Assembly: GCA_015178975.1 (NCBI GenBank)
Contig: WHVD01000098.1
Span: 186,001 to 250,000 of the forward strand
From: Hysterangium stoloniferum
Lineage: Eukaryota; Basidiomycota; Agaricomycetes; Hysterangiales; Hysterangiaceae
DNA: 64,000 nt
Reading direction: 5' to 3'
Part shown: positions 1-56,779 of the stretch, one piece after another
Layout of the letters: each line of letters opens with the position of its first letter
How positions within the stretch are numbered: position 1 is the stretch's first letter
Translations under genes and position numbers: made by a program
The notes under the pieces: model-generated
Databases searched by the model: none
Told to the model about the DNA's origin: nothing
The model's input: the letters and a program-made list of their open reading frames with translations, nothing else

Positions 1-367
1 TTTAAACCGAAGGGAATCCAGCTTTTCATTTCAAATGGAGAGCGTATATAAGGAAGAATAACTATAGTTTCAAACGCAAGGGATAAAGTGGCAGACATGA
101 TAACGAAGCTGTCCCAGTTACAATAACATCCAATAAAAAGGCGACCCTGACGAATGACCGGATGGCGAATTCGATGATGATGGTGATGTTGGTAGATGGT
201 GATGATGTGGGTATATGGTGATGATGTTGGTAGATGACGATGATATTGGCAGATGACAGAATGAAATGTGTGCGGTGGGTATATTTGGTGGGATGAGTGA
301 GCTATAGAAGTCCGTAGTGTTCAGGGCCGTTTCACAATCACAAGCAGAAACTACACACCTCAGGTAG
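1..367. other. 3' flank of pheromone gene P1
   Basis: No gene is supported here. On the minus strand this is the downstream flank of P1. A CATCA/ATCATC-rich low-complexity stretch lies at about 165-255. A splice-donor-like GTGTGTAG follows the P1 stop codon after nine bases, so part of this flank may be a 3'-UTR intron. Confidence 0.6.
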
Positions 368-493
368 CTACAAGACGATGCAGTATCCGTTGGGGCCCGC
401 ATACGATCTGTCTTGGTCAACAAGAACTTGCTCGTCGTCACCCGATGTTGCGCCCGAGGCGAAAAATGTGAAGAGAGTGAAGAATGCGTCCAT
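368..493 (-). CDS. CaaX mating pheromone precursor P1 (41 aa)
   Basis: This 41-residue ORF has the hallmarks of a basidiomycete lipopeptide pheromone precursor. It begins MDAFFTLFTFF, continues with an acidic spacer (SGDDEQ), and ends GPNGYCIVL, so CIVL is the CaaX box for prenylation, AAX removal and carboxymethylation. A conserved processing context LVDQDR precedes the last residues, which suggests a mature peptide of about 9-11 residues ending in a lipidated cysteine. Leucine in the X position is typical of geranylgeranyltransferase I substrates, whereas the other three precursors end in Ser or Ala. The ATG was chosen because it gives the family start MD.F. An ACAATGGAG site lies at 578-586, about 85 bp upstream. 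P1 and P2 share PNGYC and are probably paralogs. The longer overlapping frame is a shadow. Confidence 0.93.
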   Translation of the reverse strand: MDAFFTLFTFFASGATSGDDEQVLVDQDRSYAGPNGYCIVL

Positions 494-1782
494 TGGTGGG
501 GGATGTGATGTCTATAGGAGGTTGAGAGTGTGACAGTACTGCGACGAAGATGGTGTTTGTAGGTTGGATTTTCAACAACAATGGAGCAAGCTTTATAAGA
601 GGTTAGCCCTAAACCCAAAGGAGAAGGACAATACAGGTCGCTTATACTGAGCGTCTACCATGATTGGAACCTATCGACAAGCGCATATTCAACGGGAAAA
701 ATCCTCCTCATTTACCCATTCATTTTTATGATTGTCTGCAGTTGACGCACTCTATCCTTGACTCTTTGGATAATATCGAACACTCCACTCAGTTGATCAG
801 TGAGAAATACGCGTCGGGTGGGTTTTATTGTGGCGTGTATGCGACACGAAGTCGTCAGGTTAAACCGCTCAGAATTCACGCATTATTGACCGCATTCGTC
901 TGGTTTATTGTTCTTATGTAAGTTTACCTATATACTATAACCAGGTAGATGGATCCCACGGCTAAAATATCTACTACTTCCGTCTCCTAACCATTCATCC
1001 AAGTTCGGCAACAAACTCCTTCAGGCCAGGGCAATGCCAAACCACACGAATGTCTGCCTATTGACCTTCAAGGTGCACACAAAAAACAGCGTCATATTTA
1101 GCGCTTCGGTTATTCAACACTCTATAATTAGCCTGGTCAGCTCGGTCATGTCCATTTGTTCTCATCCTTTGACAAGAAGCTCAAGGTGGTTCAAGGTGAC
1201 AGGGTGTGAAAGTAAACATGATTTGTGTCCTTTTTTATTTTGGGAGGCTGGTCATATTTTTCGCAGCTTTAGTGACATCAGGTACATTGTTGATCTAAAT
1301 CACAAACAACAATAGGTAACTGACTGGTTATAAGAATATGTGCGAATGGACGACGGAACTAACTCACAGCGCTTTAATGTCAGCGTAGATTGAGTCTTAG
1401 ATATCAGGGTCATGGTGCCTGGGAAAGTGGCGCCTCTAAATAGGTGTCCAATCTTACCTAAAAGAGTTGTATTCTTCCCCTGTGCAATAGTCGATCTCGT
1501 GGCTTGGGTCACGATATTTTTTATGAACCGAGTCACTTGACGTATTGTTGAAAATTACAATAATATATCTGAAAGCTAAAATGAGTTGAACAAGCCTAGT
1601 ATAGTCCAATCTTTCAAGTTGGCTGAAGATGAACACGCGATGCTTACGTCAGCAAATTATTGTTCCTAAGCGATTTACCTTTTGGGCAAAGAATAAGGGA
1701 CGAGCAAACAGGTATAAAACAGATGTATGCTCAACCCTGAATCCACCAGACTGAAAGCCGTATCTTCATACTTTCATAAGCC
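494..1782. other. Intergenic, P1-P2
   Basis: No convincing gene. The P1 promoter side contains the HMG-box-like ACAATGGAG at 578-586. Close to P2, an ATTGTTC core lies at 1659-1665 and a CAAAG at 1687-1691. The short open frames here have neither coding character nor introns that join them. Confidence 0.5.
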
Positions 1783-1893
1783 ATGGACACATTTCTCACC
1801 TTTTTCACCTTTGGCGCAATGTCAGACGATGATGTTCTTACTGATCAGGATACTTCTTCATCCTCCCCGAACGGATACTGTGTGGTTTCGTAA
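1783..1893 (+). CDS. CaaX mating pheromone precursor P2 (36 aa)
   Basis: A 36-residue precursor starting MDTFLTFFTF and ending SPNGYCVVS, with CVVS as the CaaX box. The middle is acidic (SDDD) and LTDQD matches the processing context of P1 (LVDQD) and P4 (LVDRD), which predicts a mature peptide of roughly 11-12 residues. The Ser in the X position fits farnesylation. It lies 1.67 kb upstream of receptor R1 on the same strand and could belong to that sublocus, although a peptide normally does not activate its own-haplotype receptor. TAA is followed after 12 bases by TGAG|GTGCCG, the same sequence context as in P1, so a 3'-UTR intron ending at a CTGCCAG is likely. Only this ATG gives the family N-terminus. 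Confidence 0.93.
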   Translation: MDTFLTFFTFGAMSDDDVLTDQDTSSSSPNGYCVVS

Positions 1894-3438
1894 GATGCTA
1901 CTGAGGTGCCGCATTATCTCCTTGTTATGACTTTGGCACCTGTGCTGACTCCTTACTTTTCCCTGCCAGCCTTCCGCTATCAATCATGGCTTCCCGCATA
2001 CCAACATTGTCAGTCGATATCCACCCATTTGCCACCCCATCGACGAAAACATCACCTTATTCTTCATTCATTCATCACAAGGCTGCCTTTATAAATTATT
2101 ACGTCTATCATTCAGACGATTTCGTTTTCATATTCATCATTGTATCCCTTGCTTTGAATTATAATTATTGTTATTTATCTCTTTTCCTGAAATGTAAAAT
2201 GTATGCCTAGTTGCATTGGATTTGCCATGTTACAGTCTATCCGAGCAAGGCTCCGCAAAGAACGTAACATGTACAAATATATACTTATGCATATATGGTG
2301 CATACTTCTTGTTTAGAATTTGGCCTAGCCGCTTTACCACACTTCTGACCAGTTTGTATGCTCGTTTTCATACTCCGGAAAGTAGCTGATGAGATCTAAC
2401 AGACAAAATAATTGGGGTGTAAGGTACATAAATTAATGTCGTAGTCAATATGGTCATAAAATGTTAATGTACAAAAGAGTAGCCAAAAGGCGGGATTTAC
2501 GCGAGAACAGACGACCGACGGGAGAACGAAAAAAAATATTGCCCCCACTAAATCCTGGAGGCCGCGGGGGATCGCTGTTGGTCTAGCTGGGCGGCAGGAA
2601 GTCGGCCATTTATGGGGCCATGTAATTTGGTGGCGTAGAAGGCAAACATTGCCTTCATTCAAGTTAGAATCTATGTTTATGAACTTTTGAGGTTATCCAC
2701 CTATGGGGCATGCCTCTTCAAAGAACTGACGTCAGTACTTCTTTTGGGTTATTCACCGGCTGTTGATGGTGGGACAAGATGGCGGTGACGCATGGATCAT
2801 CATTAAGGACTAGGCTTTGAGCATTTTCTCCAGCTGAGCTATTGAGGTCGTCTCCAGCGTCACTGTAAATGCAGTAGAATATGAGGGCCGCCTTAGGTTT
2901 CCATTGCTTGTCGTCGTTGTAATATCTAATATTTTTCACCACAGGAAATGTAGTAATAACTTTCGGGGTGAGTGCAGATGGACAAGTCTAATAGCTTGTC
3001 CGAATTTCTGTAGCTACATAAGTTCGAGTGGGCTGAATGGAATAAATTACAGCACATCCAGCGGAAAGGTTGTAATCAGTCGTAAAAATATAAAAGGCGA
3101 GGCTCGCTATGGGGCACTAATATGAAGCAATGTGTAACCGGGTTGGCACATCGGAATATACGATGAGACCTACTTGGACGCAGAAAAAATGTCCCCTGGT
3201 TTGTTGCAGAAGACATGTTGCTTTTATTCATTTTTGGAAATTGTCGGACGCTGAGGGCCTTACTCCTTCTCCTCACTGCAATGTACAGAACGATAATCTC
3301 CCAAGTGACGGCTCTTGTAATATAGTGATCCGAAGGAGTCCACGTGGTAACAGTGGTAGAAGTGGTAGAGCGCTGCCGATGATTGCCGAACCAATTCCCT
3401 GGATACAATTGAGCGATAGGCAAATTTCCATTTTTGGA
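1894..3438. other. Intergenic, P2 to R1 promoter
   Basis: No gene is recognised. Open frames at 3076-3513 on both strands overlap each other and resemble no family. The first ~150 bases are the presumed 3' UTR and intron of P2. Confidence 0.45.
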
Positions 3439-3463
3439 ACAATGGTGAAATCGAACAAAGGGA
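3439..3463 (+). promoter_or_regulatory. HMG-box/PRE-like site pair upstream of R1
   Basis: ACAATGGTG (3439-3447) is followed 7 bp later by ACAAAGGGA (3455-3463), about 104-128 bp before the R1 ATG. ACAAAGGGA is identical to the pheromone response element bound by the HMG-box factor Prf1 in Ustilago (established knowledge). Its use here is inferred. Confidence 0.65.
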
Positions 3464-3566
3464 TAATTGAACCTTATTTCACGGGAACTATTCTCCCGCA
3501 ATTTCCAGCTTAAATGCAGGGAACAAGAGGCTATCGCGACATCTCTCAGCGTCCCCTGCTACTAGT

Positions 3567-5059
3567 ATGCGCCATCCGGAGTTTCCAGTCGTTTCCTTCC
3601 TCTTGCTTCCGTTCTTGCTTGCCTCTCTGCGGTCTCATATCAAAGTGCCTCGTCTCATTTGGTGCTTTCGGCATAAAAACTGACTTCATACGTAGGCACG
3701 GAGTGTAGCCACCGTCTCTCTTGTAGTGTGGTTATCACTATATAACATTATCCGTGGCATCAATTCCATCGTATGGGCCAATAACACGACCATTCGACTG
3801 CTAGTCTGGTGTGACATAAGTAAGCATCATTCTCATTCAGTTGGAAATGTCGTCTGACTTGTGATCGACCAGCAACAAAGTTCGGGATTGGATTTACAAT
3901 TGCCGTTCCACTTGCAGCTCTGTGCATTTGCCGCCACCTGGAAAACGTGTCATCTAACCGCCAGGCAATGATAACCAGTGACGATAAGAGACGTAGGATG
4001 ATATTTGAATCTGTTTTATGCTTTGCTCTACCCCTGATTTTCATGGCGTTGCGTACGTCTTTATCACCTTTATTACTACTTATGTTGATTTGCCTGTAGA
4101 TTACATTGTACAGGGTCATCGATTCGACATCGTTGAAGACATCGGATGTCTACCAAACACATATATTTCAGTTCCATCTATGGTTCTAATATTCTTCCCG
4201 CCTCTCGTCATTGCTATGATATCGATGTGCTATGCAGGTTAATAATCCGCGCTGATTTTATTATTTTTTCTGACTATATTTCCCCAAATGTGATTCAGTT
4301 GCAGCCTTCCACCATTTCCTTGCACGCCGTATTGAGTTTGCTGCCATTTTGCACAAGTCCAATTCATCCCTCAGCACCAGTCGCTACTTCCGTCTCATGG
4401 CTCTTGCTGTCTTCGAAATATTCTGGGATACCGGAAACGACATATACGTCATTTGGGCAAATTGGCGGGCGGGGTTGCATCCGTGGATTAGTTGGAGCGA
4501 TGTTCATTCAAAGTTCTCCCATGTAGGGAGAGTCCCTCTTTTCTTGACCCCGCAGTCGGTTATAATTTCTAACACATACATGTGGTGGATTCTCCCCATC
4601 TCCTCTATCGCCTTCTTTATATTCTTCGGATTTGGTGAGGAGGCTCTTTCCGACTATCGTGCAGGCTTGGTATGGATCAAACGTGTCGTACTGCGTATGC
4701 CAGTTACACCCAACAGTTCTTCCGAAATCCTTCCATCGTATAGGTCCGCTCTTCTTAACCCATCATTTACCTTGATTTTAATTATCCCCTTTAGAACTCG
4801 AGCTGGCTCAGCAAATATGTCCTCATCTCAGAAATGCGAGAGTCGATCGTGGAACGAGCTTACTCTCGTCATTCCGGACATAAGCGATCGCTCTACAATA
4901 TCTTCTTCGAGACGCGATTCCAAACCCGACTTCGACCTACCGTCATACAAATCGGAAGCTTCAACACCCTCGTCAACGCCTACGGCGCCAGAAACACATG
5001 TCGAGGTTCCGTCTGAATCGATTCACAATGACGAACGGCACGGCGCACATACTCAATAA
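3567..5059 (+). CDS. STE3: STE3-type pheromone receptor R1
   Basis: A seven-transmembrane GPCR of the fungal STE3 family that binds lipidated peptide pheromones at the plasma membrane and couples to a heterotrimeric G protein and MAPK cascade. Six exons fit without a stop: 3567-3644, 3696-3819, 3873-4052, 4100-4237, 4305-4743 and 4795-5059 (407 aa). Recognisable parts are the N-terminus MRHPEFPV, NSIVWANN at the end of TM2, VWCDI, HYIVQGHRFDIVEDIGC before TM5, RYFRLMALA at TM6 and FFGFGEEA after TM7. The Ser/Thr/Pro-rich cytoplasmic tail is about 90 residues. Intron positions are shared with R2 and R3. The last intron (51 nt, weak donor GTCCGC) is a multiple of three and could be retained. 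R1 lies 1.7 kb downstream of P2 and 0.8 kb upstream of its paralog R2, on the same strand. Confidence 0.95.
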
Positions 5060-5720
5060 AGACGCAGTTCTCGTTCCCCCATTTTTTCTGGAATCTCCGC
5101 GATAGACAAACTCATCATGCAAACTGCGTGTCCATTTACTGTACAGCTGACCCCCGGCATTATTTTCCTGCTAAATTTTTTACGATGATTTCATATCTCT
5201 TTTATACCTCTTGTATTCGTTGTTCAGTATTTGGTCGCTTGTATCCATTAGCGAATTCATGACCAATATAAAATCCATCCATGTAGATACTATACTATCA
5301 ATGCGCAGTAGAGTGCTTTGATTATTACCGTCATGTGGGAGAGTCGGAGTCTGCCAGGTTCCGGGAATGGCATGGATCAGTTTTGAACGTGCGCAATATC
5401 CTGGACTAAGGGTGATTAAGTACTTCGAGAATCACAGAAGTTAATTGATGCCTTTATATTTTGAACGCTGTCATTGACGCAGGGTGTGGCGGCGGGTATA
5501 CTCCGGTACTTAGACCATGGAGACGAACAGGAAAAGGTGTATTACTAAGCATATGGCTGAAGTATTCACTAAGGATAGACAAGATCCATAAAGATATAAT
5601 TTGAAATATTTATGCCTTAAAACAAGGAATTATATGATCGCCATAGACTTTGAAGTGTAAGTATATTGACGGAAGCAATTCTGGCGCTCACGTGGGATTC
5701 TATCGGCAGCTCAATTTAGA
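5060..5720. other. Intergenic, R1-R2
   Basis: No gene or repeat recognised. It contains the 3' flank of R1 and leads into the R2 promoter. Confidence 0.5.
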
Positions 5721-5765
5721 ACAATGGGAGATTACCACAGTCGACCACTTGGCCAGTCCCATTGT
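5721..5765. promoter_or_regulatory. Inverted HMG-box site pair upstream of R2
   Basis: ACAATGGGA at 5721-5729 is matched by its exact reverse complement TCCCATTGT at 5757-5765, ending 91 bp before the R2 start codon. ACAATGG/CCATTGT is the classic HMG-box (SOX/MATA-HMG) core. A promoter role is inferred from its recurrence before every receptor in the window. Confidence 0.65.
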
Positions 5766-5856
5766 TCTTCAGCATGCTTTTAACGCTATACGCTGGTTCT
5801 GTTGGTTATTTGCCGCGTGTTGCCCTCTTTCCTCTACCACCACCGAGACCCGTACA

Positions 5857-7480
5857 ATGCGCCATCCAGAATTTCCTGTGATATCTTTCCTCTGTATTCC
5901 CCTCGTTTTGTCCTCCCTGCCTTCACACATTAGAGTGCGTCTTTTTGCTGCCATTGCTGCATTGTGCTAACGCAGACCGAAGAGTCGGAGTATCCCTATT
6001 ATTTCTTTGGTAGCATGGATGACGGTCATGAATATTATTCATGGGGTGGACAGTCTAGCTTGGGCGAACAACGTTGACATAAAACTGGAGGTGTGGTGCG
6101 ACATCGGTAGCGTATCCCCATTCTTCACAGCAGTCACCAATTTAACGGAGCTCCCGCGCCAGCTACTAAAATCGAGATCGGCTATACCTTTGCGGTCCCC
6201 GCTGCAGGCCTCTGTCTGATGCGCCACCTCGAGAGCGTAGCGGCTGCGAGGCAGGTCAGTGCGAGCAGCGCACAGAAGCGCCGCCGTCAAATATTTGAGT
6301 TGATTATGTGCTTCGGACTCCCATTAGTTTTCATGGTGCTCCGTAAGGTCTCTCCCCTGTGAAGCATACGACGTCACTTATACATCTCCCCAGATTTTAT
6401 CGTCCAAGGCCATCGATTCGATATTATCGAGGACATCGGTTGCAGTCCGGCCGTTTACTGGTCAGTCGCCAGCCTGGTGGTGATATGGGTGCCTCCATTG
6501 CTTTTGTCTTGTATCTCCTTCGTTTACGCTGGTATGTCTATCTCTTTTTTCACGTACACTTTGTAACTAATCATTTATGAAAGCTTTCACGCTGCGCCAT
6601 TTCCTCCGCCACCGTATATCCTTCGCAACCCACCTTCGCAATTCACAATCAGCGATCTCACCAAACCGTTACTTCCGACTCATGGCCCTAGCCGTCGTGG
6701 AAATGACTTGGGACATTGGAATTAATGTTTACCTTCTTACGGCGAACTTTTCAATGGCCACTCTTTTACCTTGGATTAACTGGCAAAATGTCCATGCTCA
6801 TTTTTCAAGAGTTCAGCAACTCCCCAAATTCCTCGTTACGGCTTCCTTTATGAATCAAGAGATACTAGTGTGGTGGTTTGTTCCCTTCACTTGTGTTCTT
6901 TTTTTCCTATTTTTTGCATTCGGGGAAGAGGCAATGTCCGACTACCGCGCTTGTTTTTCATGGTTCCGTCGGACCATACTTCGCCAACGCGTCGAAAAGC
7001 CGAAAAACCGTGGTGAAATATTGCCTTCGTACAGGTATGTCTTTCCCCTTATGTCTATTACGTTTATTTAATGCGAAATGCAGCGCTCACAGGCACGACA
7101 TTCACATAAACACGAACAAACGCGATCTTGCTGGCGATGATACCAAAGCACCTTGGGATAGTTGTTCGATTAGTCTCCCGGACTTGACAACCCCGTCAGA
7201 ACTTGCATTTGCTTCAGACATGAAAGCTCCCCAACTACATGGCGAACTTGATCTAACGGTCGACGGATCCCATATTGTTTCGGTGCCACCGCCGACAACC
7301 TTGAACACTGATTGCCCGTCTTCCTTGGAACATTCTGCATCAGAACAGAATGCTACACTACCCACAAATGAGCCAGACTCTAATAACTCAATACCCGGCC
7401 CGGAATTGACCACTCCCCACACAGGGGATGGCATTCGTGTTACTATCGAACGGACAGTGTCTGTTTCACGTAGATTGTGA
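5857..7480 (+). CDS. STE3: STE3-type pheromone receptor R2
   Basis: Second STE3 GPCR, with the same six-exon architecture as R1: 5857-5934, 5983-6106, 6163-6342, 6394-6531, 6584-7034 and about 7084-7480 (about 455 aa; the last acceptor could also be at 7092, which removes three residues). It begins MRHPEFPVISFLC. It carries SLAWANN, VWCDI, HFIVQGHRFDIIEDIGC, RYFRLMALA and FFAFGEEAMSDYRA in the expected order. The first two introns have lengths and phases like those of R1. The C-terminal tail of about 130 residues is rich in Ser, Thr and Pro and ends near GIRVTIERTVSVS, a motif echoed in R4 (GGIRVIVEKSTV). No pheromone gene lies immediately beside it, so it may be a duplicate receptor or share P2. 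Confidence 0.95.
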
Positions 7481-8474
7481 CACCCCAACTCACTCTCCTT
7501 GTTGCTCTTCTTTCTTTCGAGTCATATATCCATTACAAACATTGTATTTGTATTCGTAGCTCGCTGATGCGACCATGTATCTTAATACCTTACTCCATCA
7601 AAAAAATATTTTTAAAATTGTCAGCAATTTTGCTGTGGGCGATGTGAACGATTCCCAATATCATGGCGTATTTTGAACTCGAAGCAATAGAGGGTATTTG
7701 CAACTAGTAAATATTAGCGAACTGAATTGGTTCCTGATAGAAAGGCTCTTGTAACCCTGGCCACCTTACCACATACGCCACCATTCCCTACTACTCCCTT
7801 TGCTCGACTAATCAAGCATTCCTTGTGTCGCCACTCAATCACCCTTGACCATTGTTCTCCCATCAACCTTTGTTCTCCTTTTTCTGTCACATCTTCCTTG
7901 TCTTCAGGCGCCTTTTGTTACCACAATCTTATTGTTCCAAGCAGATATATAAGTATACATTCCACAGTGATAAGAGAACAATCTTTTTGACTATGAAATC
8001 CCTTCTCACTCTTCCCTAGGGAACCTCACATTCATCTTGTATCATACTGCTATTAAAATAAAGAAAACTTAGTCCTGTCCGTGTTGACCGAGTGAGGCTG
8101 ATAACAACAGCCTTTCAGCTCTTCACAGTGATATATCATGAACAGTCCACTTCTGAACCTGTGTCACCAACAATTTCGAAGGCCCCAAAGCCGCTCACAA
8201 TCGATATCATGTGGAACTTGTGCACCATCAATTCCAGAAGCCTCAAAGCCGCCCACGATCGATGATATTATGTGGAATTTGTGTTTCTATTGAATTGTGG
8301 ACTACACGTTATCAATACCCAAAAAAAAACCGAAAAATAATAAATATACAGTGCACAATCGGGGAATGGCACGAACGGAGCAGCTAAAACTACAAAAGGG
8401 AAATAGAGGTGCAGAATTTGAGCAGCAGAAAATGCAGGGAGAGGGAGCGGGACTATAGAACATGGTCAGCGCCG
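7481..8474. other. Intergenic, R2-R3 (tail to tail)
   Basis: R2 and R3 converge here. No gene found, and no CaaX precursor was seen on either strand. It contains a small tandem duplication (listed separately) and A-rich stretches near 8320. Confidence 0.5.
8152..8283. repeat. Imperfect ~66-bp tandem duplication
   Basis: Two diverged units share the order caat-tc-gaagcc-caaagccgc-ca-atcgat-atgtggaa-ttgtg. They lie in the noncoding gap between the convergent receptors. Confidence 0.6.
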
Positions 8475-10185
8475 TCATGACACTGGATGGCTGGGGGTAT
8501 GACTTGAGGAGGGTGTATAGGGTGGGTCAGTGAATGCTGATGAAACTGATATGCCAGTATCAGTCGACACCGATCCTCGATGCACTATAGCAAAGTGCTC
8601 AGGGGTTGCAACGTTGTCAATGTGGGTTGCGACTGTATTCGAAGCACCAACTTGGGTAGTGACTGTATTCGAAGCACCAACTTGGGTAGTAACTGTATTC
8701 GAAGCACCAACTTGGGTAGTGGCTGCATTCGGAGCACCAACTTGGGTAGTGACACTTGCTGATTCAACGTCCACGGAGGTTCGATGAACAGGTTGTGCTA
8801 CCATTTCAACGTCGGCGCTGCTCGCACCAGAACCATTTCGAGGCAAGACATATTCTGGGGGCTCTGACATCTTGAGGGAGATAGCATCCCAATCCATCGA
8901 TTTTTGGTCGTCGTCGCCTGACTTGGGGGACAGTCTAAGGCTAACATTTGTGGTGCGAGGGCTAGGGTAGAGCGGAATTTAGCTGGGTGCAGAACTAAAA
9001 ATAGATCATAGACAACAACGAACCGATAAGTGGGTAAACCTGCAAAGGTTGATGGTTCTTGAACTTTCTGGCGCAAGATGGTGCGGCGGAACCAGTTGAA
9101 GGCTGCCTTGAAGTCGGACTGGGACTCTCCACCGAATCCGAAGAAAACAAAGAACAGCAGGGCGGAGATAGGTAGGAGGTACCATTGAAAGATAAATATT
9201 TTCAAATTACGGGCGGGAATTAAGAAGGTCGGAAATTGTAGTATGCGGGAGAAATGCGAATGAACATCGGCCCAGCTAATCCAGGGGCGGAAACCGAGTG
9301 AAACGTTCGCCCAGATTACCCACGAATTAATGGATGTATCCCAACACACGGTAACGATGGACAGAGCCATTAACCTGAAGTAGCGATTCGGGCTCATGCC
9401 GGACTGGCTGTTACGTAAATGGGTTGCGAAGTTAATTCTGTGTCTCAGGAAGTGACGCAGAGTCATAACTGTAGAAATATGAGGGTAGGAAGACGAGCAA
9501 AATAAGTGGGACTAACTGGCGAGAACCAGACTGAATGAGGACAGTACCAAAGGAGGGAGGTAAATGAGAAACAGAGCGGCCCAGGAGAAATACACTGTGG
9601 GCATGCATCCAATATCTTCAAAGATATCGAAGCGATGGCCTTGTACAATATAATCTAACTGAAGATAAGCTTCATTATCATAGACTCTGATGGGAGGACG
9701 TACGCAAGGCCATCAAAAGAATAGGGAGTCCAAAGCACATTACTGCCTCGAATATCTGTCTGCGACGCCGATCATCACGAGTTGTCATTACATGACGCGC
9801 CGACGCGATATGTTCGAGATGTCGTAAAATACACATTGCTGCAGCAGGCACAGCAATTGTGAGTCCAGCAAATATTTTTGTTACTAGTAATAATTAAGAA
9901 GCTGGGATCGAGAGGAGAAAAGGCGAGTTTACCAATATCACACCAGACTTGGTCTCTGATAACGACGTTATTGGCCCAAATAATAGAGTTAATGCCTTTG
10001 GCGATGTTGGCTACGCTGAGCCATCCGATTAATGCAAGAGTGCTAACGCTACGAGCCTAATACGGTAAGTATGTATGCCTTTAAGATGGGAAAAAAAGCG
10101 GACCTACCCTGACATGTGAAGGTAAACATATCAAAGCGAGCGCTGCTGAGACAAAAGAGAGAATTGGGAACTCTGGATGGCGCAT
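8475..10185 (-). CDS. STE3: STE3-type pheromone receptor R3
   Basis: Third STE3 receptor, inverted relative to R1 and R2. Exons on the minus strand are 10185-10108, 10056-9933, 9883-9704, 9654-9517, 9468-9024 and 8961-8475, giving 483 aa. It begins MRHPEFPILSFV and contains NSIIWANN, VWCDI, HYIVQGHRFDIFEDIGC, RYFRLMALS and FFGFGGESQSDFKA, where GGES replaces the GEEA of its paralogs. Exons 1-4 have exactly the same lengths as in R1 and R2 (78, 124, 180 and 138 nt), so the three arose by duplication. The cytoplasmic tail is the longest of the R1-R3 trio and contains four copies of a ten-residue TTQVGASNTV-like repeat. Overlapping plus-strand frames over the tail are shadows. Confidence 0.94.
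8628..8755 (-). repeat. 30-bp tandem repeat inside R3 tail coding sequence
   Basis: About four units of exactly 30 bp encode TTQVGASNTV-type decapeptides in the R3 cytoplasmic tail. The period keeps the frame, so copy number can vary without breaking the protein. Confidence 0.85.
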
Positions 10186-10276
10186 GTTGAGATGTCACTT
10201 GAGATGTAAGAGGAAGGGGGGAACGGTCGATAGAATCTGAGGACCAAATTTACCCCCATGCTTTAACGCTTGTGCA

Positions 10277-10309
10277 ACAATGGGGAGTTCACTTGTAAAT
10301 TCCCTTTGT
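10277..10309. promoter_or_regulatory. Inverted HMG-box/PRE-like pair upstream of R3
   Basis: ACAATGGGG (10277-10285) and TCCCTTTGT (10301-10309, the exact reverse complement of ACAAAGGGA) lie 92-124 bp upstream of the R3 ATG at 10185. Spacing and distance resemble the sites before R1, R2 and R4. Confidence 0.65.
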
Positions 10310-11444
10310 TCCTCGGAAGCTTAAATGGAACTTAATTTTAATTTAGCCGCCGAAATGCCGTTCAACCACAATGGTGGCGTTGCCGGACTTGGCTTCCGAG
10401 CCAAACTGCCGTCAGACGCTCTAATAATGGCTTAGCTGGCTTCCGGCTTAGCCAGGCTAATCTTGGTCTATTATTTAACTTTTGTGCTTTATGTAGGAAT
10501 TTAATTTATGTAATGCACAAAATACCGCAGGTTATTTCCTTTTCTACTTCCAGTGCCTATGTGGTGATAAAAATGTGTAAACTGGCTCTAAACAAACTAC
10601 CTGATAGAGACATGGGCAAATTACATAGTACGTTATTGTATATTTTTCCCTCGTTCTGGGCATTATTTGATTGCTTGTGATCATGTCTGAGATCGAGTCA
10701 CACTAGCTAGACTAAATTTCTGACTTCTCTGCAGGTGAGAACTAGTATTCTCACACGTTTCGTATTCTTGAGTGACGGGCAGCAGGTAAACTTATGCCTC
10801 ATGCTCATGATATGACTAGCAGCCGTACTTTCCTAATAATAAGCATGGTTTCATAATTCCTGAAAAGTATGAGCTTACAGTAACAGTCTTTTACCATTAT
10901 TGAGGTTTCGACTCAATTGTCACCCCTGTCGTCTTTCGAACTCCCTACAGGCGTGAACCAGGATAAGGCGGGGAAACTTGCTTGCAAATAGATCTGTTTA
11001 TATGGTTTATTTTGCTCCTATTGAAGCATTAATATCAACAAATTTTCACCTTGAAGGTTGGGAGCTACGAACATACTATATTTTAAGCCTGATACATCCT
11101 GGTTGGTAAGTCTTGTTCTAGGAGTTACCTTGATATAATTTTTTTTAACTTTCCTACCTGGAAAATATTACGCATGGCTTAATTTATAGTCTGTTCCGTT
11201 ATTCTCCCTAAGTAGTCAACTGACTGTGCATGCAGCGCGGTGACTGACGTGCGCATATAATAACACAGAATATTAGAGGAACATGGGTCGTGCCCAAATA
11301 TGAATTGACTCCCGAGATGCTCACACACATGTGAAGAGATGCAATTGTTTACAAACAGCCTACTCCCAGCGGCTATAGATCGGTACCAATTGTGACCCTG
11401 ATTACCATATATGGCAAATTGGTTCCGCCTTCTGCCAGGGCCGT
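10310..11444. other. Intergenic, R3-P3
   Basis: No gene, pheromone precursor or repeat recognised in about 1.1 kb. The sequence is AT-rich and frames are short. It separates the R1-R3 cluster from the P3/R4/P4 group. Confidence 0.5.
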
Positions 11445-11479
11445 CTTTGTTCTCCTTTTCTGGCCCTGCAACAATAGAG
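11445..11479. promoter_or_regulatory. HMG-box-like pair upstream of P3
   Basis: CTTTGTTC (11445-11452, the reverse complement of GAACAAAG, as also seen before R1 and R4) and ACAATAGAG (11471-11479) lie 78-112 bp upstream of the P3 ATG. Both depart slightly from the receptor sites. Confidence 0.4.
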
Positions 11480-11556
11480 ATCCATATTATTTAATGGCAG
11501 TTTTCCGGGCAAAGCAAACAACACGTCGTCCCAATACCCCCTTTCCACCAACTACC

Positions 11557-11679
11557 ATGGACACCTTCATTTTGTCAATATTTGCGTTCTTCACTACTTC
11601 CGCCCAAGAGGATGATGCTCAACCAATGGTAAATGCTGAAGCATCGCAACCAGTTGGGGGTTTTTGTGTCGTCGCATGA
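11557..11679 (+). CDS. CaaX mating pheromone precursor P3 (40 aa)
   Basis: A 40-residue ORF beginning MDTFILSIFAFF with an acidic centre (QEDD) and ending QPVGGFCVVA, giving a CVVA CaaX box. It shares the MDTF start and length class with P1, P2 and P4, but its C-terminus (VGGFC) and its processing region (NAEAS instead of D-Q/R-D) differ. It is therefore predicted to make a distinct ligand. It lies 1.1 kb upstream of R4 on the same strand, the closest pheromone to that receptor. The stop is followed after 13 bases by GTATGTACC, a good 5' splice site, and CATAG or AATAG acceptors follow, so a 3'-UTR intron is likely. A longer in-frame upstream extension (from 11392) is rejected because it destroys the family N-terminus. 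Confidence 0.92.
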   Translation: MDTFILSIFAFFTTSAQEDDAQPMVNAEASQPVGGFCVVA

Positions 11680-12662
11680 TACCCAATACCAAGTATGTAC
11701 CAGTTTATTGCATATCTCATAGATTTTTACGCCAATCCAATAGTTCATTACCACCATTACCACCATCCCCATCATCATCACCGACATTATCATTATTATT
11801 CGTTACAACAATTCCAATTGGTCTTTTAAGGCGATGGTCTATTCACGAGATAGATCAGCCAGAGAAACTGTATTTTTGCAGATTTCTCAAAGGCCATCAT
11901 TCACTTCGCATAATTTAAGCCATGTATTTCGCCATTAGCCATTAGTATCACTTCGATCTTCCTGAGAGAGATGTTTGACTTATTTTTAAAATATAAATCC
12001 ATGCTGGTTTCATGCTCATCGTTCGCCGCTACTTATATACAATGGATTGGGACAAACAGCGTGCTTATGTAATTGCCGACATTATCCTAGTCACGTGTAT
12101 TTAAACAATAGATTGGGACAAACGGCGTGCTTATGTAATTGCCGACGAAGCTTTGTTTGACAAATCTTTGCAGGTTGGAAGTAGCCGAGCTACGGCAGCA
12201 CTCTCCCTTTGTTCTTTCAAACTTCTCAGGTTCTCACAAACCCCCATTGTTCACTTTCGACCATATTCACGCTTTAACTTTGGTAAAAGGTTAATACGGA
12301 TTTCATTCTCTGAAACAACAGATGTAGATAAATAGTTAATGGGATGGCTAATGTAATGGTGTGGTGTGGCCACCAATACCACAACTCAGGGCTCCTGGAA
12401 CCACATCATACGTGGGAAGTTGGTCAGCAGCGCTTCCGAACTTACCACGTGGCTATGTATTTTTAATCAGGGTCACAGCATGGAATCCAATTTTTTTGCT
12501 GAACACCCACTTGTCGTTCTGGATATTTTTGAAGAGTCTTAGACCCTAAATATCACAGGAATTTGTAGGACAATTATCGGTGCAGATTGTGTACAACCCA
12601 TAATGACGGTTCTTTATCTTCGGATCGTGGTTTGGCGCCGATCCGTCTTACCATATTGAGGA
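11680..12662. other. Intergenic, P3-R4
   Basis: Holds the P3 3' flank with an ACC/ATC-rich microsatellite (about 11740-11805) and a 40-bp direct duplication (listed separately). A minus-strand stretch at about 12360-12545 reads like a decayed coding fragment. No intact gene is seen. Confidence 0.45.
12041..12146 (+). repeat. 40-bp direct duplication, period 66
   Basis: The block from aatggattgggacaaac to aattgccgac occurs at 12041-12080 and again at 12107-12146 with about two differences. Both could encode MDWDK-RAYVIAD; in the second copy ATG is ATA and the frame stays open a little longer. This may be a duplicated first-exon fragment of an unknown gene. Confidence 0.6.
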
Positions 12663-12714
12663 ACAAAGGGTCCCTTTGAGGTGTGGGAGAAGACAAATGA
12701 ATAGTCCCCATTGT
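12663..12714. promoter_or_regulatory. HMG-box/PRE-like site cluster upstream of R4
   Basis: ACAAAGGGTCCCTTTGA (12663-12679) is a palindrome of two head-to-head PRE-like sites. CCCATTGT at 12707-12714 adds a third site. The cluster lies 65-116 bp upstream of the R4 ATG. Confidence 0.65.
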
Positions 12715-12778
12715 CTTTACCATATAATAATATGGTCAGGGTCTTGACCTGTTCACGTTGTAACTGTCGCTATTCCCA

Positions 12779-14512
12779 ATGAACCCTGGCTATCCTACTT
12801 TCGCATTTCTCGCTTTCGTTCTCGTCTTGGTCCCTCTTCCATGGCATGTGCACGCCTGGAATGCAGGTACTTGCATATACATGGCCTGGGCAGCGCTTGG
12901 GTCCCTTATCCACTTCATCAACTCCATCGTGTGGGCAGGCAATGTTGACATACACTCGATGGCTTACTGTGATATCGGTTGAGTACCTAGTGAAGTCTTG
13001 TGTCTAATTTGCTGATCGTCATTTCTACAGTGACTAAAATTCTTGTCGGGTGGAGTGTGGGCATCCCTTGTGCTGCTCTGTGTATCACCCGTCGTCTATA
13101 CTTGATCGCAACCGTGTCGAGTGTATATACCACCAAAGCGGAAGTGAGATTGAGGCCCATAATCGATTATCCTAATTTTTTTACTGACTTGCACTAGAAA
13201 CGGCGTGCTGTCTTCATTGACGTCGCTATCGGGGTCGGAATCCCCGTAATAGTCATGGCGCTGCGTATGTTTCGAATCTATCTATCCATTACGGCAACCC
13301 CCCTAAGAAAATCACCGTAGATTACGTCGTGCAAGGCCACCGCTTTGATATATACGAAGATTATGGGTGCTGGCCGCATACCGTAAACATGCTCCCATCA
13401 TACTTTTTGGTTTGGATCTGGCCAATTGTGATCGGCATCATTTCCTTAGTTTACGGTTGTTCGTGTTACGTCTTTCCTTGCCCCTCGCACTGCTGATGGT
13501 TTCCCTACCAGCTTTATCCTTGTCCGCATTTTTTCGTCGCCGGGTCGAATTTAACCAATATTTGTCCGCCAACCAAAGTATGGTTAGCGCAAATCGATAT
13601 TTCCGACTCATGGCTCTAGCCACTATCAACATTGTTGTTGTGGTTCCAATGGCCGTATACTTTATGTACCTCAACATCGCCATCGGTCTTCAGAAGTGGG
13701 TTAGCTGGTCCGACACTAAATGGCACTTCGATCGCGTAGATACCTACCCAGCGTGGCAGATTGACCTCATTCCTTTGTTGCGGACGACCATTAATATGAA
13801 CGTTTGGACTATGCCGACATGCGGCATCCTCTTTTTCATTTTCTTTGGTCTGGCTGAGGAAGCACGCAGACATTACAAATATGCTTTCCAAAGAATTATA
13901 GGATTCTTCGGTATTAAGGCTTCTACCAGGTAAATATTTTTCTCTCGTTCCTTTAGCCACCATATCTAACATATATTGCCGCTTATTTTTAGAGCGTTGA
14001 ATACATTGCCTCGAAGCGTCAATTTTGATCGGGCCTCGAGCGTCGTCCGGTCTGAAACTGGCCAAAAGTGGGACCAATTATCAATCGACATGCCATTTTC
14101 CGACAAACGAACAAGCGGTACCAGTTTATACGCTGTCTCGTTCGCTGGAGCCATTCCTTCTACTCCATCTACACCGGGAAGCGGGACTCAAGATCCTCAA
14201 CACTCTAACATGACATCGATCCCGACAGTACTTGTCACCGAGTCTAAGCCCAACTCTACACCTCCGCTCACTACCGTCTCGCAGGCATCCCCTTCAGCTC
14301 TCCAACCCCCTTCTACATCACATGCTGTGGAGCGACGTGGCTCAGATGCCACCGACTTCTCGATAGACGTTTCCCCAGCGTACGAATACTCAACAAATGA
14401 ACTACAACCATCTCACGAACAAGATATTTTCAATGGCGACAACCTAGAGAGTCCACAGCATGTATTCCCGCATGGAGGCATCAGAGTAATTGTCGAAAAA
14501 AGCACAGTTTGA
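12779..14512 (+). CDS. STE3: STE3-type pheromone receptor R4 (divergent lineage)
   Basis: STE3 GPCR with exons 12779-12977, 13031-13143, 13198-13264, 13321-13455, 13512-13929 and 13993-14512 (483 aa). The N-terminus MNPGYPTFAFLAF, the LPWHVHAWNAGTC segment, NSIVWAGN and YCDI resemble the classic agaricomycete receptors more than R1-R3 do. Unlike R1-R3, R4 lacks the first intron but has an extra one in the third cytoplasmic region (before KRRAVFIDVAIG). Conserved core motifs are HYVVQGHRFDIYEDYGC, RYFRLMALA and FFGLAEEARRHYKYA. The long Ser/Thr/Pro-rich tail ends GGIRVIVEKSTV, like the R2 tail. It lies between P3 (same strand) and P4 (opposite strand), forming a typical receptor-plus-two-pheromones sublocus. 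Confidence 0.95.
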
Positions 14513-15258
14513 ATGTCTTTTCAGGATAGAGTTACCATTTGTCGTGCCTTCATCATCATTCTTGACTCTGTAGCACTCATATTTCCCTCGCTTTGTTTTT
14601 TTTATACCCTTCAGTTTTCATGCTTTGGTGATCTAGATAATATTAAATGTATGTGTAGCTCTCATATCTAACTGTATAAATAGTCAAAAAGCATTATCTT
14701 TGCATGTTTGTGACACGGCTGGACTTAAGTTGCACTGTCATTCCAGGACACAACTGGCTCACCCAATATATAATCTCTGACAACTAATTTGTGAAGCCTC
14801 TAACATCAGCAGCTCTCCAAACAGTACAAATATTTATCATAAAAGTGACCTCAAGCCGTATAACATGTTACAAGCCTTAGGGAAAATCGGCATCACTTAT
14901 TTGCAGCCGTTGTTACAAACAATTCCAATTCGCTGAGGACGACTTACGGTAACACTCGTGAATTCACCAAAGATATGTAGGGTGCAATGGAGCACAGATG
15001 ATATTGCAATGAACAAAGTAAATATGGTTATAATCAAGGAGATAATGATAGGGTATCAATGCGCATGCATGTCAACAAAATGTCCAACGAAATAATGGTA
15101 AGGATGATAAATAAAATATTGCAGCAGTGTCGGCGAGCTGACGAATGCGAATAATTCGGTGATGGTGATGAAAGAAATACTGTTATGGTGTGGCTGAGAC
15201 AACGTAAGAATGATTAACATAGCGCAAGAGAAACTGGATACATACCTCCATCTAGGAC
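14513..15258. other. Intergenic, R4-P4 (tail to tail)
   Basis: 3' flanks of R4 (left) and P4 (right). The P4 side carries the donor-like GTATGTATCC and GATGGTGATG-type low-complexity DNA near 15160-15175. No gene seen. Confidence 0.5.
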
Positions 15259-15372
15259 CTACGAAATAACGCAGAATTGATTCGAACCTGTCGACGAATC
15301 GCGATCAACTAGCACTTCTTCCTCTTGGTGTGCTGACATGTAAGTAAAGAATAGTGTGATGATAGAATCCAT
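15259..15372 (-). CDS. CaaX mating pheromone precursor P4 (37 aa)
   Basis: A 37-residue precursor beginning MDSIITLFFTYM, with an acidic run QEEE, the processing context LVDRDSS and the C-terminus GSNQFCVIS (CaaX box CVIS, farnesyl-type). LVDRD links it to P1 and P2, while the residues next to the lipidated Cys (SNQFC) are unique, so the ligand should differ in specificity. It is transcribed towards R4 from its 3' side, 0.75 kb away. The stop codon is followed after 13 bases by GTATGTATCC, a likely 3'-UTR intron donor, and TCTCAG acceptors occur about 60-70 nt further on. An in-frame upstream extension is rejected in favour of the family start. No clear HMG-box pair is seen upstream. Confidence 0.92.
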   Translation of the reverse strand: MDSIITLFFTYMSAHQEEEVLVDRDSSTGSNQFCVIS

Positions 15373-18300
15373 TGTAGATGCAGCTGAAGGATAGTTGTCA
15401 ACAAATAACGGTGCGTGAGAACGGTGGGTTGTGGGTTGCAAGGTGGATTTGGTATTCAGGGATGACACTACTTCACGTTATTTGTACCAGGTTCAGCCAT
15501 TATTATGAGACAAAAGAGATCGTGTATCCATTGAGTTCACGCAGACAATGACGAGAATTGAAACTCCGCTTCGGGAACTTCGGATGTGGACAGATATCCA
15601 TCAATCGGCAGCAAAGTAGATGACGGGAACAAATCCTCATTTCTGATCTTTTTATCAGATTCGGTCTCGATCGTTGGGTTTTAAGTGCTCCAGTATTTAT
15701 CTGCAGGATAATATTTGTGACTTGGGCCCTGTATGCGTGCTTTGTGCTGCACTGATGTTGCTGGCTGCCCAGTAAATTTATCGTGCATTCTGATGGAAAT
15801 GTTGGTTCTATTTCTCCATATGAGGTAAACGATACCCGAACAGGGGCTACAAGAGTAACGTTATTTCCGGCAGATGAATTTGGTACAGATGCCATGAGTT
15901 CATGCTCTTACACGGATGCAGAACAAGGCAAGAAAGACGATCCGTCTTAAGTTTCCTTCTAAGACCAAGTACAATCACCACGATTTATTCTAAAATAGTA
16001 CCGTGTCCAGAATCTGGAGAACTAGGCGCTGCTTAACCTCCTGCCAGTGGAATACTTCCCCGTCTATAAGTGTTTATTGTTCTTCCTCTCTCGATCCAGG
16101 GTCTTCACCTGGAAGTGCATCAATTATTATGATATCATGGGTAAGTTCCGGACTTAGCCTGTCGAGTGAGCATGTGTATCCTGTGTTAATATATAGGAAA
16201 ATAGGAAAGCTCCGAAGTACCAGATGATGAGTGGTTTCCTACCCGGATGTCGAAAGCCGTTCACCCTCTACATTGTCATCAAAGCCCCTCTACATCGCTT
16301 CTATTTGAGGAGTGTTTTCGCACATAGGACAAGCTGGCCAATTCACTGTTTTTGATTTGTCGTAAGTGTCGCAATACTATTGTGCGTCAGGCAGCTGGAT
16401 GGCTTATGAGGTACGTCTTTCGGAATTGCGTCGACGGCCCCGTCTGCCAACCTTGGGAAATCGTCTTAATTATGACTTGAGCGACCGCTGTCCGAATGTA
16501 GTTTCGATGGTGGCGTAGGGCGTTCGCCTCTTTGACGCATGTTCATGGCTCAAAGGAAATGGCCAGCGTTATTGTTATCACTTGGCTGTCAGACAACTTG
16601 AAGGATATCGACAAGACAATATGTTCCTGTTGGGCATTAGATGTGCTGTCTGTCACGAGGGGTTTCTTTCACAGGACTTAGCCATTCGTACCTTCTATCC
16701 TAATGCGGATGAAGCAATGTGAAGAGAAGTAGAAATGGCTCAGGGCTCGTATTGTGTTTGTGGTTTGTCTTCAGTATGTGCACATGCGAGGCAAGCACGT
16801 CGGGTTTCTTTCACAGGACTTAGCCATTCGTACCTTCTATCCTAATGCGGATGAAGCAATGTGAAGAGAAGCACAAATGGCTCAGGGCTCGTATTGTGTT
16901 TGTGGTTTGTCTTCAGTATGTGCACATGCGAGGCAAGCACGTCGCTTTACCGTGCTGAACAAGAATTTTCAACCAGACTTCTGAGATTGGTGCTATTGTG
17001 TGCCTGTCTCGACACCGCAAACTCGAGAAAGCTTGCCGGGGATGACACGGAGTGTCGTTGGTATTGTTCATCTTGTGCAATACCAGCTGAGAAATGCAGG
17101 CAGTATTGGTGGGAACCTGGTATTGTGCGAGCATGTGGATAGCATGGTACAGGAACTTGCGGTGACTGTCGAAGCTATGACGAGCATGCCCAAGAGCATC
17201 GGTGTGCTTCTGTGCTCTCTCACAATACCCCAATCATGGCACAGGTAGCAAAGACAATTGGCAGGCTGATGAATAATCGCCAAAGACATACGATGCAGCA
17301 GCACCGACAGTCCGATAATGATAGTAATTACGACGTGCAAGGGGCAATTGTAACAAGAATGGACACTGTGGGACTGTTCTTTCAGAGATTTGCGGATGAT
17401 GGTGTATTGCTGATAAGTCGTAGCATCCATTACTGTGTGTTGCCTGAGCGGCTTTGGAGATCCAACTCACAAAACCACACAGCTATGTCGAACTTGATGC
17501 ACGTAAATCGCCTATGGGGACAGAAGTCGAATGAATGCAACCCCATGCTCGATTTCTCAGCAGTGATGCCGACAATGTAGTGTTGAGATACTCGGTGAGC
17601 AATTTCGATACGGGCGGTATTCGGGAGGCAGACTAGACAGTGCATTGGACGTTGAAAACAGAACAGAGATGGCACGTAAAACAACCACATGTGCCGGTTG
17701 ATTCTCAATGAATCTTCAATCATGCTCGTTGACTTCCAGGGTTTTGTCGATACACTGATGTCACTTTGAAGACTCTCGGACATGGCGCCATTTCTCTTCA
17801 GGCATGTCTAATCATCGCCGTGAATGTCCATGTCAGGGTGGACACGCCGGACTGTTCGGAATAGTGTGTTGCCGTGTTAGAGACATTATTGCAATCAATG
17901 CATACACTCGATTGTTCAACACTAGGTTGTTCTCTCAGTCTCCCACAGAGTTGTGAAAGCCAGCACCCTCTTTCATTGAGACGTAGCATAACATTTCAGC
18001 GATTTGAGGGTAGTGCCCTCCTGATAACAGCTATCGTGACGAGATTAGGATTTCTTGCCTTGAAAAAGCCCGCGGTCCGGTGGAAATGATCCAGATCGAT
18101 ACCTCGGGACTTCGACCCAATCTGGCGGCTTTCGGTCTAAGCAATATCTGGTGCAATAATTTGGAAAATGCCGTTCAAAATGGTAGTTGCGGTCATGATA
18201 TATTTCGATATATCGCTACAACCAGTTGGCATCAAGCTGTCTCCTTGTGATATTATCATACCGGCCCTTGAGCTTGGAAGGGAAACTGGAGCTGGGAGGG

Positions 18301-18864: not shown

Positions 18865-19764
18865 TTAATCCAAAAGATCGTCCAAAAAGTCCTCTAGTTC
18901 AGTCATATCGCTTTTAATGGATGGCTTGAGATTGGCATCCGTATCTTTATCTGTGTCGGGGAGATGACGAGAGTCTACAACTTTGGAGTCGATTTCTGGG
19001 GATACAGAATTTATAATTTAGCATTTCAGTCAATGAGAAGACAAACCTGGATCGCGCGACTGCTTTACCACAACAACGGGAACGCGGGGTTGATTCTTGC
19101 GAAAACGTGTCTTCAAGTCTGAAGAGCGAGAGGTAAGAAAACGTAAGAAAAACAAAAGTGCAAAAGTTTTTAAAATGAACCATACCTCTTACTGCCTCAG
19201 CTGCTTCTTTCTCCCGTTTCAATTCGTCCAATGACGCATCCCATTCGATGGTATGTACATTATTCTTCCGGGATTTCGAGAAGTTTGACGTTGAGGGTAA
19301 ATGAGAAAGTGTATGATCAACCTCATCATCATCGGTTTCAACAGTAGGCTTAGAGACTACAGTGCTTTCCAATTCCAGCCGTTGCCTAGCAAGAAATTCA
19401 GATAGATCAACTTCGGGTTCTGGTTCCTCCTCAGCTAACAGGATAGTTGTTAATTATGTTAATTAGAATGCCATGTAGTAGAACTAATCTCACCATGGGG
19501 GTCTACTTCTGGCTCTTCATATCTGTCTGCATTTGTGCCAATGTTGCGTTTGGCATATTTCCTTTGTTCAGCACGCTCATCACCTTCTCCATCTTCGCCA
19601 TCTTCATCGCCACTGCCGCTATGGTCGTCATCTTCATCCTCCAAGCGCAGTCTAGTGACAAATTCTGCTGGACGACCTGTCCCTCGCCTGCCCTTAGCAC
19701 GTAAATATTTTCCGAGACCTCCACGACCTCGACCTCGACCTCGGTGGGTTGGGGGAGTTGACAT
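18865..19764 (-). CDS. RG-rich acidic conserved hypothetical protein
   Basis: A four-exon minus-strand gene. Its start at 19764 gives MSTPPTHRGRGRGRGG. An Arg/Gly-rich, probably RNA- or nucleic-acid-binding N-terminus (LGKYLRAKGRRGTGRP) is followed by a Glu/Asp run, a segment EPEVDLSEFLARQRL, the predicted helix IEWDASLDELKREKEAA and an acidic C-terminus ending ELEDFLDDLLD. Introns start after the DPHG, AEAVR and SRDP codons, all in phase 1, with good GT/AG ends. I do not recognise the family. Composition suggests a nuclear protein. It is divergently transcribed from the CNOT11-like gene across only 163 bp, so the two may share a promoter. Plus-strand frames across it are shadows. Confidence 0.8.
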
Positions 19765-19927
19765 TACGGTGTGCAACAGTAGATCATCGGCTTACATACA
19801 GTAAAGGTCTGAGATCCGTCACGTGCGGAAGAATAGTTGGCGTCAAAAATAACTTACATGCTACGTTAACTGCCACAGAGCTAATTCAGCTAGACTACTT
19901 AAAACACACCCAATTCGAACATATACG
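19765..19927. promoter_or_regulatory. Putative bidirectional promoter
   Basis: Only 163 bp separate the start codons of two divergent genes. No TATA box is obvious. The stretch contains tcacgtgcgg (a CACGTG E-box) near 19818. Confidence 0.5.
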
Positions 19928-56775: not shown

Positions 56776-56779
56776 ATGT

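Follow-up and report, generated by a model that had tools for sequence, protein, structure and literature searches.

Among the described B mating loci, that of Rhizopogon vesiculosus contains four receptors and four pheromone precursors, and in the sections of the report drawn on here R. vesiculosus and R. vinicolor, both ectomycorrhizal Agaricomycetes, have receptors from clades 1 and 2 (PMC5473757). Approximately half of the Rhizopogon precursors were detected only with a script that searches for the CaaX pattern, CVIS is one of the CaaX ends, and the B region of this genus of Boletales contains ICMT genes (PMC5473757). The B locus of Hypsizygus marmoreus, as given in the part of the publication used here, covers ~22 kb with three receptors, two receptor-like genes and three precursors, encloses three hypothetical genes, and has precursors that flank one receptor on both sides and carry a conserved glutamate 10 residues before the CaaX motif (PMC8686365).

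The locus of the ectomycorrhizal false truffle Hysterangium stoloniferum is of this ordinary, already well-known kind. In the window, i.e., the whole analysed stretch of 64,000 nucleotides, four STE3 receptor genes (R1 to R4) and four CaaX precursor genes (P1 to P4) lie in one block, a size that is known because R. vesiculosus likewise has four of each. As in Rhizopogon, receptors from both clades are present and one precursor, P4, ends with CVIS, whereas no ICMT gene was on the receptor contig C553 among the 15 matches listed. As in Hypsizygus, precursors (P3 and P4) stand on both sides of one receptor (R4); unlike in Hypsizygus, no enclosed hypothetical genes are evident from the frames tested, and a glutamate thereabouts is found in P3 only. 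We are confident that this block is the B (pheromone/receptor) locus of one H. stoloniferum haplotype, consisting of the adjoining subloci P1-P2-R1-R2-R3 and P3-R4-P4. The B-type reading, which an earlier note on this DNA had proposed, fits because STE3 receptors from both ancient Agaricomycete clades and CaaX precursors adjoin.

Gene content of the receptor block

The spliced six-exon models of the four receptor genes give intact proteins, each with one nearly full-length match to the Pfam STE3 profile (cut-off 29.2 bits). R1 (window positions 3567..5059, plus strand, 409 aa, 299.1 bits; exons 3567-3644, 3696-3819, 3873-4052, 4100-4237, 4299-4743 and 4795-5059) equals the public H. stoloniferum protein P0009 except for a differing C-terminal tail. 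R2 (5857..7480, plus strand, 455 aa, 295.2 bits; exons 5857-5934, 5983-6106, 6163-6342, 6394-6531, 6584-7034 and 7084-7480) is modelled with the rare acceptor AAG in intron 1, and an identical public protein was absent among the 240 matches listed. R3 (8475..10185, minus strand, 483 aa, 310.4 bits; exons 10108-10185, 9933-10056, 9704-9883, 9517-9654, 9024-9468 and 8475-8961) is the public protein P0001 (396 aa) with a differing tail, and the clade 2 receptor R4 (12779..14512, plus strand, 483 aa, 325.3 bits; exons 12779-12977, 13031-13143, 13198-13264, 13321-13455, 13512-13929 and 13993-14512) is the public protein P0121 (312 aa), which ends at the last intron.

For the precursors, 114 kb (the window with 30 kb to its left and 20 kb to its right) were scanned for uninterrupted, ATG-started frames of 20-100 aa with a loose CaaX end. 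Only four CaaX frames with an MD start were found, P1 (368..493, minus strand, 41 aa, CIVL, in an open frame), P2 (1783..1893, plus strand, 36 aa, CVVS), P3 (11557..11679, plus strand, 40 aa, CVVA) and P4 (15259..15372, minus strand, 37 aa, CVIS), and none in the remaining 98 kb. The scan reproduced the sizes of 36-41 residues and the four CaaX ends reported in the earlier note, and all eight genes were recovered at window positions 368-15372 where that note had put them, with the coordinates of P1 corrected to 368-493.

It is highly improbable that these small frames are chance open frames instead of pheromone genes, even if their Pfam matches are weak or absent. P1 scored 20.7 bits (E 0.00088) against the Pfam Pheromone family PF08015, slightly below the cut-off of 22, P2 remained below it with 12.5 bits, and the Pfam search gave no match for P3 and P4; the four are therefore classed as CaaX precursors only, outside PF08015. 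No precursor homologues were found by protein search, the pheromone profile search gave no match anywhere at all and is thus uninformative, and the promoter element described below is not shared by these frames. Furthermore, loose CaaX frames do arise by chance, and the scan of 114 kb returned many of them, including an ME-started 43-aa frame (34994-35125, end CISH) that passes the stricter tag too and is taken as chance. Against this stand the location of all four MD-started frames inside the receptor block and their number, since four MD...CaaX frames of 30-60 aa were observed compared with a mean of 0.03 (largest 2) in 100 sequences simulated from the 15.5-kb block with a third-order Markov model. 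An MD start and a hydrophobic leader are common to all four, and the precursor pairs have 11-24 of 35-39 aligned residues alike. P1 and P2, both on the R1 side of the locus, show the highest similarity among the six pairs (24 of 36 residues; the other pairs 11-16 of 35-39). A charged pair, ER or EH, 10-15 residues before the CaaX motif is usual in mushroom precursors but does not define them; P1 to P4 lack it and have DQD (P1 and P2), DRD (P4) and AE (P3) near that place.

The earlier note had also described the block as free of other genes and the precursors as hidden in longer shadow frames. The first statement holds within the tests made, as a Pfam search with 8 of the 57 listed frames (64-141 aa, located inside or just past the intergenic gaps) produced nothing credible (best E 0.2). 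The shadow frames do exist: P3 and P4 each form the terminal part of a longer in-phase frame, and longer frames in another phase overlap P1 and P2. We see no evident meaning in them. On the left flank, a Myb-like frame was judged by eye from the letters, and on the right flank there is a CNOT11 match (E 2e-5, 25.1 bits, slightly below the cut-off of 25.9).

Receptor clades and genome context

In the receptor tree, R1 to R3 belong to clade 1, on a Phallomycetidae branch with Ramaria, Sphaerobolus and Clathrus (support 100/99), and R4 belongs to clade 2, together with the Rcb3/Pleurotus B2 clade (100/100), with clade names following those in the available text of PMC5473757. This topology backs the split into a receptor trio and a P3-R4-P4 sublocus suggested in the earlier note. 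The closest relatives of R1 to R3, compared as proteins only, are receptors of Sphaerobolus stellatus and Ramaria rubella, and the sister of R1 is Sphaerobolus P0010 (64% identity, 100/100), whereas for R4 receptors of these two genera were absent among the best 120 of 570 matches. Sphaerobolus P0005, P0006 and P0010 are each recorded on a contig of 1,080,575 bp and therefore probably constitute one cluster.

A partner as clear as that of R1 is expected for a conserved non-mating gene, and we give slightly less than an even chance to the alternative that the receptors involved in mating are only some of the four and that at least one of R1 to R3 is a conserved receptor-like gene of STE3.s type, with the mating type no longer depending on it. 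Receptor-like genes adjoin the mating receptors in Flammulina and Hypsizygus, according to the sections cited (PMC5100862, PMC8686365), and no precursor immediately adjoins R2. However, ancient partners across species are equally expected with long balancing selection on mating receptors, R1 to R3 are intact, and their promoter element is also that of R4.

Returning to the block as a B locus, it is located at one site of the assembly. The STE3 profile has 15 matches in the 111-Mb genome, all of them at C553:189684-199876, with no STE3 gene outside the locus by this search, and the R4 search gave no match outside C553. The R2 protein search yielded two CpG-depleted receptor relics outside the locus, decayed fragments on contigs C118 and C78, and the R2 promoter has an orphan copy elsewhere in the genome. 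The HD homeodomain genes are located together with MIP on contig C519 (469,570 bp) and the receptors on C553 (330,891 bp), with linkage seen within contigs only. We also considered a second B haplotype in the assembly and rejected it for the parts tested; window positions 1-3566 and 18900-22900 matched only themselves, bar one stretch of 69 bp on C279. The locus is thus single copy at its left end and in this stretch of its right flank, and within this scope one haplotype of one strain is represented.

A single haplotype might also point to a bipolar or self-fertile species in which the locus is present yet no longer decides the mating type, and bipolar Boletales do retain receptors and precursors, as far as the cited part of the Rhizopogon study goes (PMC5473757). 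We regard this as unlikely, as a one-haplotype assembly is also expected from a haploid or collapsed assembly, there is no decay anywhere in the locus, and a set of several receptors from both clades, accompanied by several precursors, is closer to tetrapolar than to bipolar Boletales in that account (PMC5473757).

A candidate control element ahead of the receptor genes

A promoter motif, first spotted by eye upon reading the sequence, is common to the receptor genes. ACAA(A/T)GGG is present on the same strand at -112 to -136 from the ATG in all four, with an inverted partner in three. Ahead of R1 the HMG-type element ACAAAGGG(A) is located at 3455..3462 (plus strand, -112), with a shorter ACAATGG at -128 and without an inverted partner. 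R2 has the pair ACAATGGG ... CCCATTGT (5721..5765, plus strand, -136 and -92), and the pair ACAAAGGG ... CCCATTGT precedes both R3 (10277..10309, minus strand, -124 and -92) and R4 (12663..12714, plus strand, -116 and -65). The exact ACAAAGGGA is found ahead of R1 and R3 only; if either A or T is allowed at position 5, the core precedes four of four receptors and three of four HD gene starts. At HD2 there is an element pair at -121/-73, a distance similar to that at the receptors; HD1 has a single inverted site at -92, the HD1 copy has a single site at -122, and the HD2-like gene at 160.7 kb has no element. Within 500 bp of P1 to P4, the strict motif was found in none of the four.

The pair did not occur in any of 100 shuffled windows, and a site fell within -140..-60 of a random start in 1.3% of cases. 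The block contains nine sites, of which those at 12212 and 12250 are off the common distance, ~530-570 bp ahead of R4, and genome-wide the pair is found at 32 places compared with 14 for the reversed control, i.e., it is not restricted to mating genes. Judging from these positions, we tentatively suggest, with somewhat less than even confidence, that the B receptor genes and the A-locus HD genes may form one regulon with HMG-box-type sites, mostly an inverted pair ~65-140 bp ahead of the ATG, and that the pheromone genes would be under other control. This possible shared control element is the fresh detail of the locus.

We infer that each precursor would be cut and then farnesylated and methylated at the CaaX cysteine, resulting in a lipopeptide to which the receptors encoded by the same haplotype would not respond. 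Upon contact with a mate of a different B haplotype, the non-self pheromone would bind a seven-helix receptor, any one of the four, and signalling via a G protein and a MAP-kinase cascade would cause nuclei to migrate and clamps to fuse. At the end of this cascade there would probably be an HMG-box factor, in the role of Prf1 or Mat2, on ACAA(A/T)GGG ahead of the receptor and HD genes, and its binding would raise the expression of both mating loci.

Comparison with other mating loci

No papers on mating genes of Hysterangium or the Phallomycetidae were found in a search of the literature that is accessible without subscription, and the available portion of a GPCR survey contains no such locus from the Phallomycetidae; the locus presented here may hence be the first mating-locus map for this subclass. 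That a B locus with both clades is old is supported because the two ancient clades share one 15-kb block in an early-branching subclass. The locus supplies population markers for an ectomycorrhizal false truffle, and ectomycorrhizal fungi are mostly not mateable in the laboratory, as stated in the cited section of PMC5473757. The common promoter element makes the coupling between the two mating loci of mushrooms easy to test.

In the parts of the literature used for comparison, ACAAAGGGA is the pheromone response element of smuts (PMC3248468), Ustilago Prf1 has binding sites of this type in both mating loci (PMC5871698), Mat2 of Cryptococcus recognises an element ahead of STE3alpha and SXI1alpha while the pheromone genes have an element of their own (PMC3744442), and the Agaricomycete Laccaria bicolor has HMG-box proteins that are closely similar to Prf1 (PMC5604158). 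The smut element has the same core as the one in Hysterangium and is placed before receptor and HD-type genes (PMC3248468), as is the Mat2 element, which was compared by placement and not by its letters (PMC3744442). The Hysterangium candidate is missing at the pheromone genes and is therefore called pheromone-response-like, not a member of the Prf1/Mat2 elements; it further differs from those of smuts and Cryptococcus, as far as the cited parts describe them, in being an inverted pair at receptors and at HD2. If the shared control is true, the pheromone response element of smuts and Cryptococcus would extend to the Agaricomycetes, in paired form.

Receptors and pheromone precursors of the locus

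The window corresponds to bases 186001-250000 of a 330,891 bp contig (C553) in an assembly of 111 Mb and 554 contigs, and the putative B (pheromone/receptor) mating-type locus at its positions 368-15372 has the order P1(-) P2(+) R1(+) R2(+) R3(-) P3(+) R4(+) P4(-), with R denoting STE3 receptor genes and P CaaX pheromone precursor genes. The four receptors proposed in the earlier note were borne out: the six-exon models, assembled manually with GT-AG introns 47-63 bases long, are all intact and matched Pfam STE3 across nearly their full length (299.1, 295.2, 310.4 and 325.3 bits for R1 to R4, respectively). An STE3 profile search of the whole genome gave 15 matches, all of them within the block. 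R1-R3 share the intron phases 0,1,1,1,2 and 45-51% mutual identity in local alignments, compared with 30-36% between them and R4; the first intron of R1-R3 is missing from R4, which carries a separate intron not shared with them. Intron 1 of the predicted R2 model uses an AAG acceptor, a rare type. Public H. stoloniferum proteins match R3 (P0001, 100% identity over 322 residues), R1 (P0009, 97.7% over 307) and R4 (P0121, 99.4% over 312), with tails that differ from, or are shorter than, those of our models, and no protein identical to R2 was present among the 240 matches listed (best 120 of 269 plus best 120 of 570). The coding tail of R3 contains a 30-base minisatellite (window 8623-8753; 4.4 copies, ten residues per unit).

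The four short precursors were likewise found as described, namely P1 (368-493, minus strand, 41 residues, CaaX motif CIVL), P2 (1783-1893, plus, 36 residues, CVVS), P3 (11557-11679, plus, 40 residues, CVVA) and P4 (15259-15372, minus, 37 residues, CVIS). All begin with MD and a hydrophobic start. Across 114 kb no further CaaX frame opens with MD, and one ME-started frame (34994-35125) passed the same CaaX filter; simulating the block 100 times with a third-order Markov model gave such MD...CaaX frames with a mean of 0.03 and a maximum of 2. The Pfam Pheromone profile scored 20.7 bits for P1, slightly below the cut-off of 22, and 12.5 bits for P2, and gave no match for P3 and P4, which is unsurprising since about half of the Rhizopogon precursors were detected solely by a CaaX pattern script (PMC5473757). 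All four lack the ER/EH pair usual in precursors; close to where it would be expected, P1, P2 and P4 have DQD or DRD. P1 and P2 are the most similar pair (24 of 36 aligned residues), and the P1-P4 alignment retrieved no candidate homologue from the 5.8 billion proteins searched.

Receptor clades and genomic setting

A 35-receptor tree placed R1-R3 on a single branch of Phallomycetidae together with receptors from Ramaria, Sphaerobolus and Clathrus (support 100/99), in which one Sphaerobolus receptor is the sister of R1 (100/100). R4 took a basal position (next branch 91/72) in a second group (100/100) that includes Pleurotus B2 and Coprinopsis Rcb3, among others. The same two groups appeared in a quick tree of 51 rows, composed of 47 sequences hand-picked from the 240 public matches listed plus R1-R4, from which two long-branched rows (a Sphaerobolus fragment and Dacryopinax) and 14 others were removed for the 35-row tree. 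These placements indicate that each half of the block represents one of the two ancient clades of receptors. Among the matches listed for R4 (best 120 of 570), none came from Ramaria, Sphaerobolus or Clathrus, so a possible loss of the R4 clade there is only hinted at. With both receptor clades present and CaaX precursors alongside, the earlier observation and its interpretation as a B-type mating locus agree with gene content and phylogeny, and both are judged correct. Loci of this type are already known, and the subclass here, Phallomycetidae, is one for which the literature searched yielded no description of a mating locus. The genome of this ectomycorrhizal species (Agaricomycetes, Phallomycetidae, Hysterangiales) was reported in PMC7550596, in whose main text a word find returned neither "mating" nor "pheromone".

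Single-copy sequence was seen at the left end of the locus and in one stretch of its right flank, which suggests that the assembly contains a single haplotype. Directly past P4 lies a 149-base direct duplication (window 16654-16944, 97% identical); farther along are a long minisatellite that is open in three phases (55700-56850; units read SQRHATVTKARDGHKGTRR) and fragments of retrotransposons encoding integrase and RNase H domains (62150-63830).

Receptor-derived sequences also occur on other contigs. Window 5668-5891, covering the R2 promoter and the first dozen or so codons, is copied at C18:55321-55540 with 92% identity over 225 aligned columns; the last ~80 bases of the copy are identical to R2, and no receptor follows it in the 1.4 kb examined. 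Fragments of the receptor middle are located at C118:113873-114097 (R2 residues 167-242) and C78:47227-47412 (R2 residues 186-247, containing a stop). CpG observed/expected around them is 0.22 and 0.14, respectively, versus 0.90-1.12 in R1-R4, and they look like old receptor copies that underwent cytosine deamination in silenced DNA.

A promoter element at receptor and homeodomain genes

The homeodomain genes of the A locus lie together with MIP (165.1-166.6 kb) on contig C519 and the receptors on C553; A and B are therefore on separate contigs, as in tetrapolar species, which holds at the contig level. HD1 (149504-152011, minus strand) is divergent from HD2 (plus, from 153,892), whose intron-split homeodomain was read by eye from the translation, and a further HD2-like gene starts at 160.7 kb. 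A second HD1 copy (128631-131077) has stretches 79-91% identical to HD1; the two copies, ~20 kb apart, have very similar homeodomains and different N-terminal parts.

The element ACAA(A/T)GGG precedes all four receptors on the gene strand, at -112 (R1), -136 (R2), -124 (R3) and -116 (R4) relative to the ATG, and has an inverted partner at -92 (R2), -92 (R3) and -65 (R4). This pair occurs three times in the window, always before receptors, and in none of 100 shuffles, and GAACAAWGGG was found seven times where 0.34 would be expected. Site density is 0.94 per kb within 3.3-12.9 kb (9 sites) versus 0.09 outside (9 sites, 104 kb); two of the nine block sites (12212 and 12250) lie ~530-570 bp before R4, off the common spacing. 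The strict motif was found within 500 bp of none of the four pheromone genes. Because the motif was picked by eye at the receptors, these receptor-site statistics are post hoc, and the HD region, scanned after the motif had been defined, comes closest to an independent test. There, HD2 carries the pair (-121/-73), single inverted sites precede HD1 (-92) and its copy (-122), and the element was not found at the start of the HD2-like gene. Seven of the eight receptor and HD starts checked, with ATGs of our own choosing and two non-independent HD1 copies, thus carry a site within -140 to -60, compared with 1.3% of random starts. Genome-wide, the pair occurs at 32 places versus 14 for a reversed control: before three receptors and HD2, in the R2 promoter copy on C18, in 21 places grouped by eye into families on like inner sequence, and in six single ones.

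This element, which may be a candidate pheromone response element, is the part of the locus worth following. We found no report of such an element in Agaricomycetes in the literature searched, where only a smut paper matched. HMG-box proteins close to Prf1 are described in the Agaricomycete Laccaria bicolor (PMC5604158), and in Cryptococcus an element before STE3alpha and SXI1alpha is recognised by Mat2 (PMC3744442). In Ustilago maydis, Prf1 binds such elements in the a and b loci alike (PMC5871698), and the pheromone response element drawn in smut P/R loci, ACAAAGGGA, is the same as the core found here (PMC3248468).
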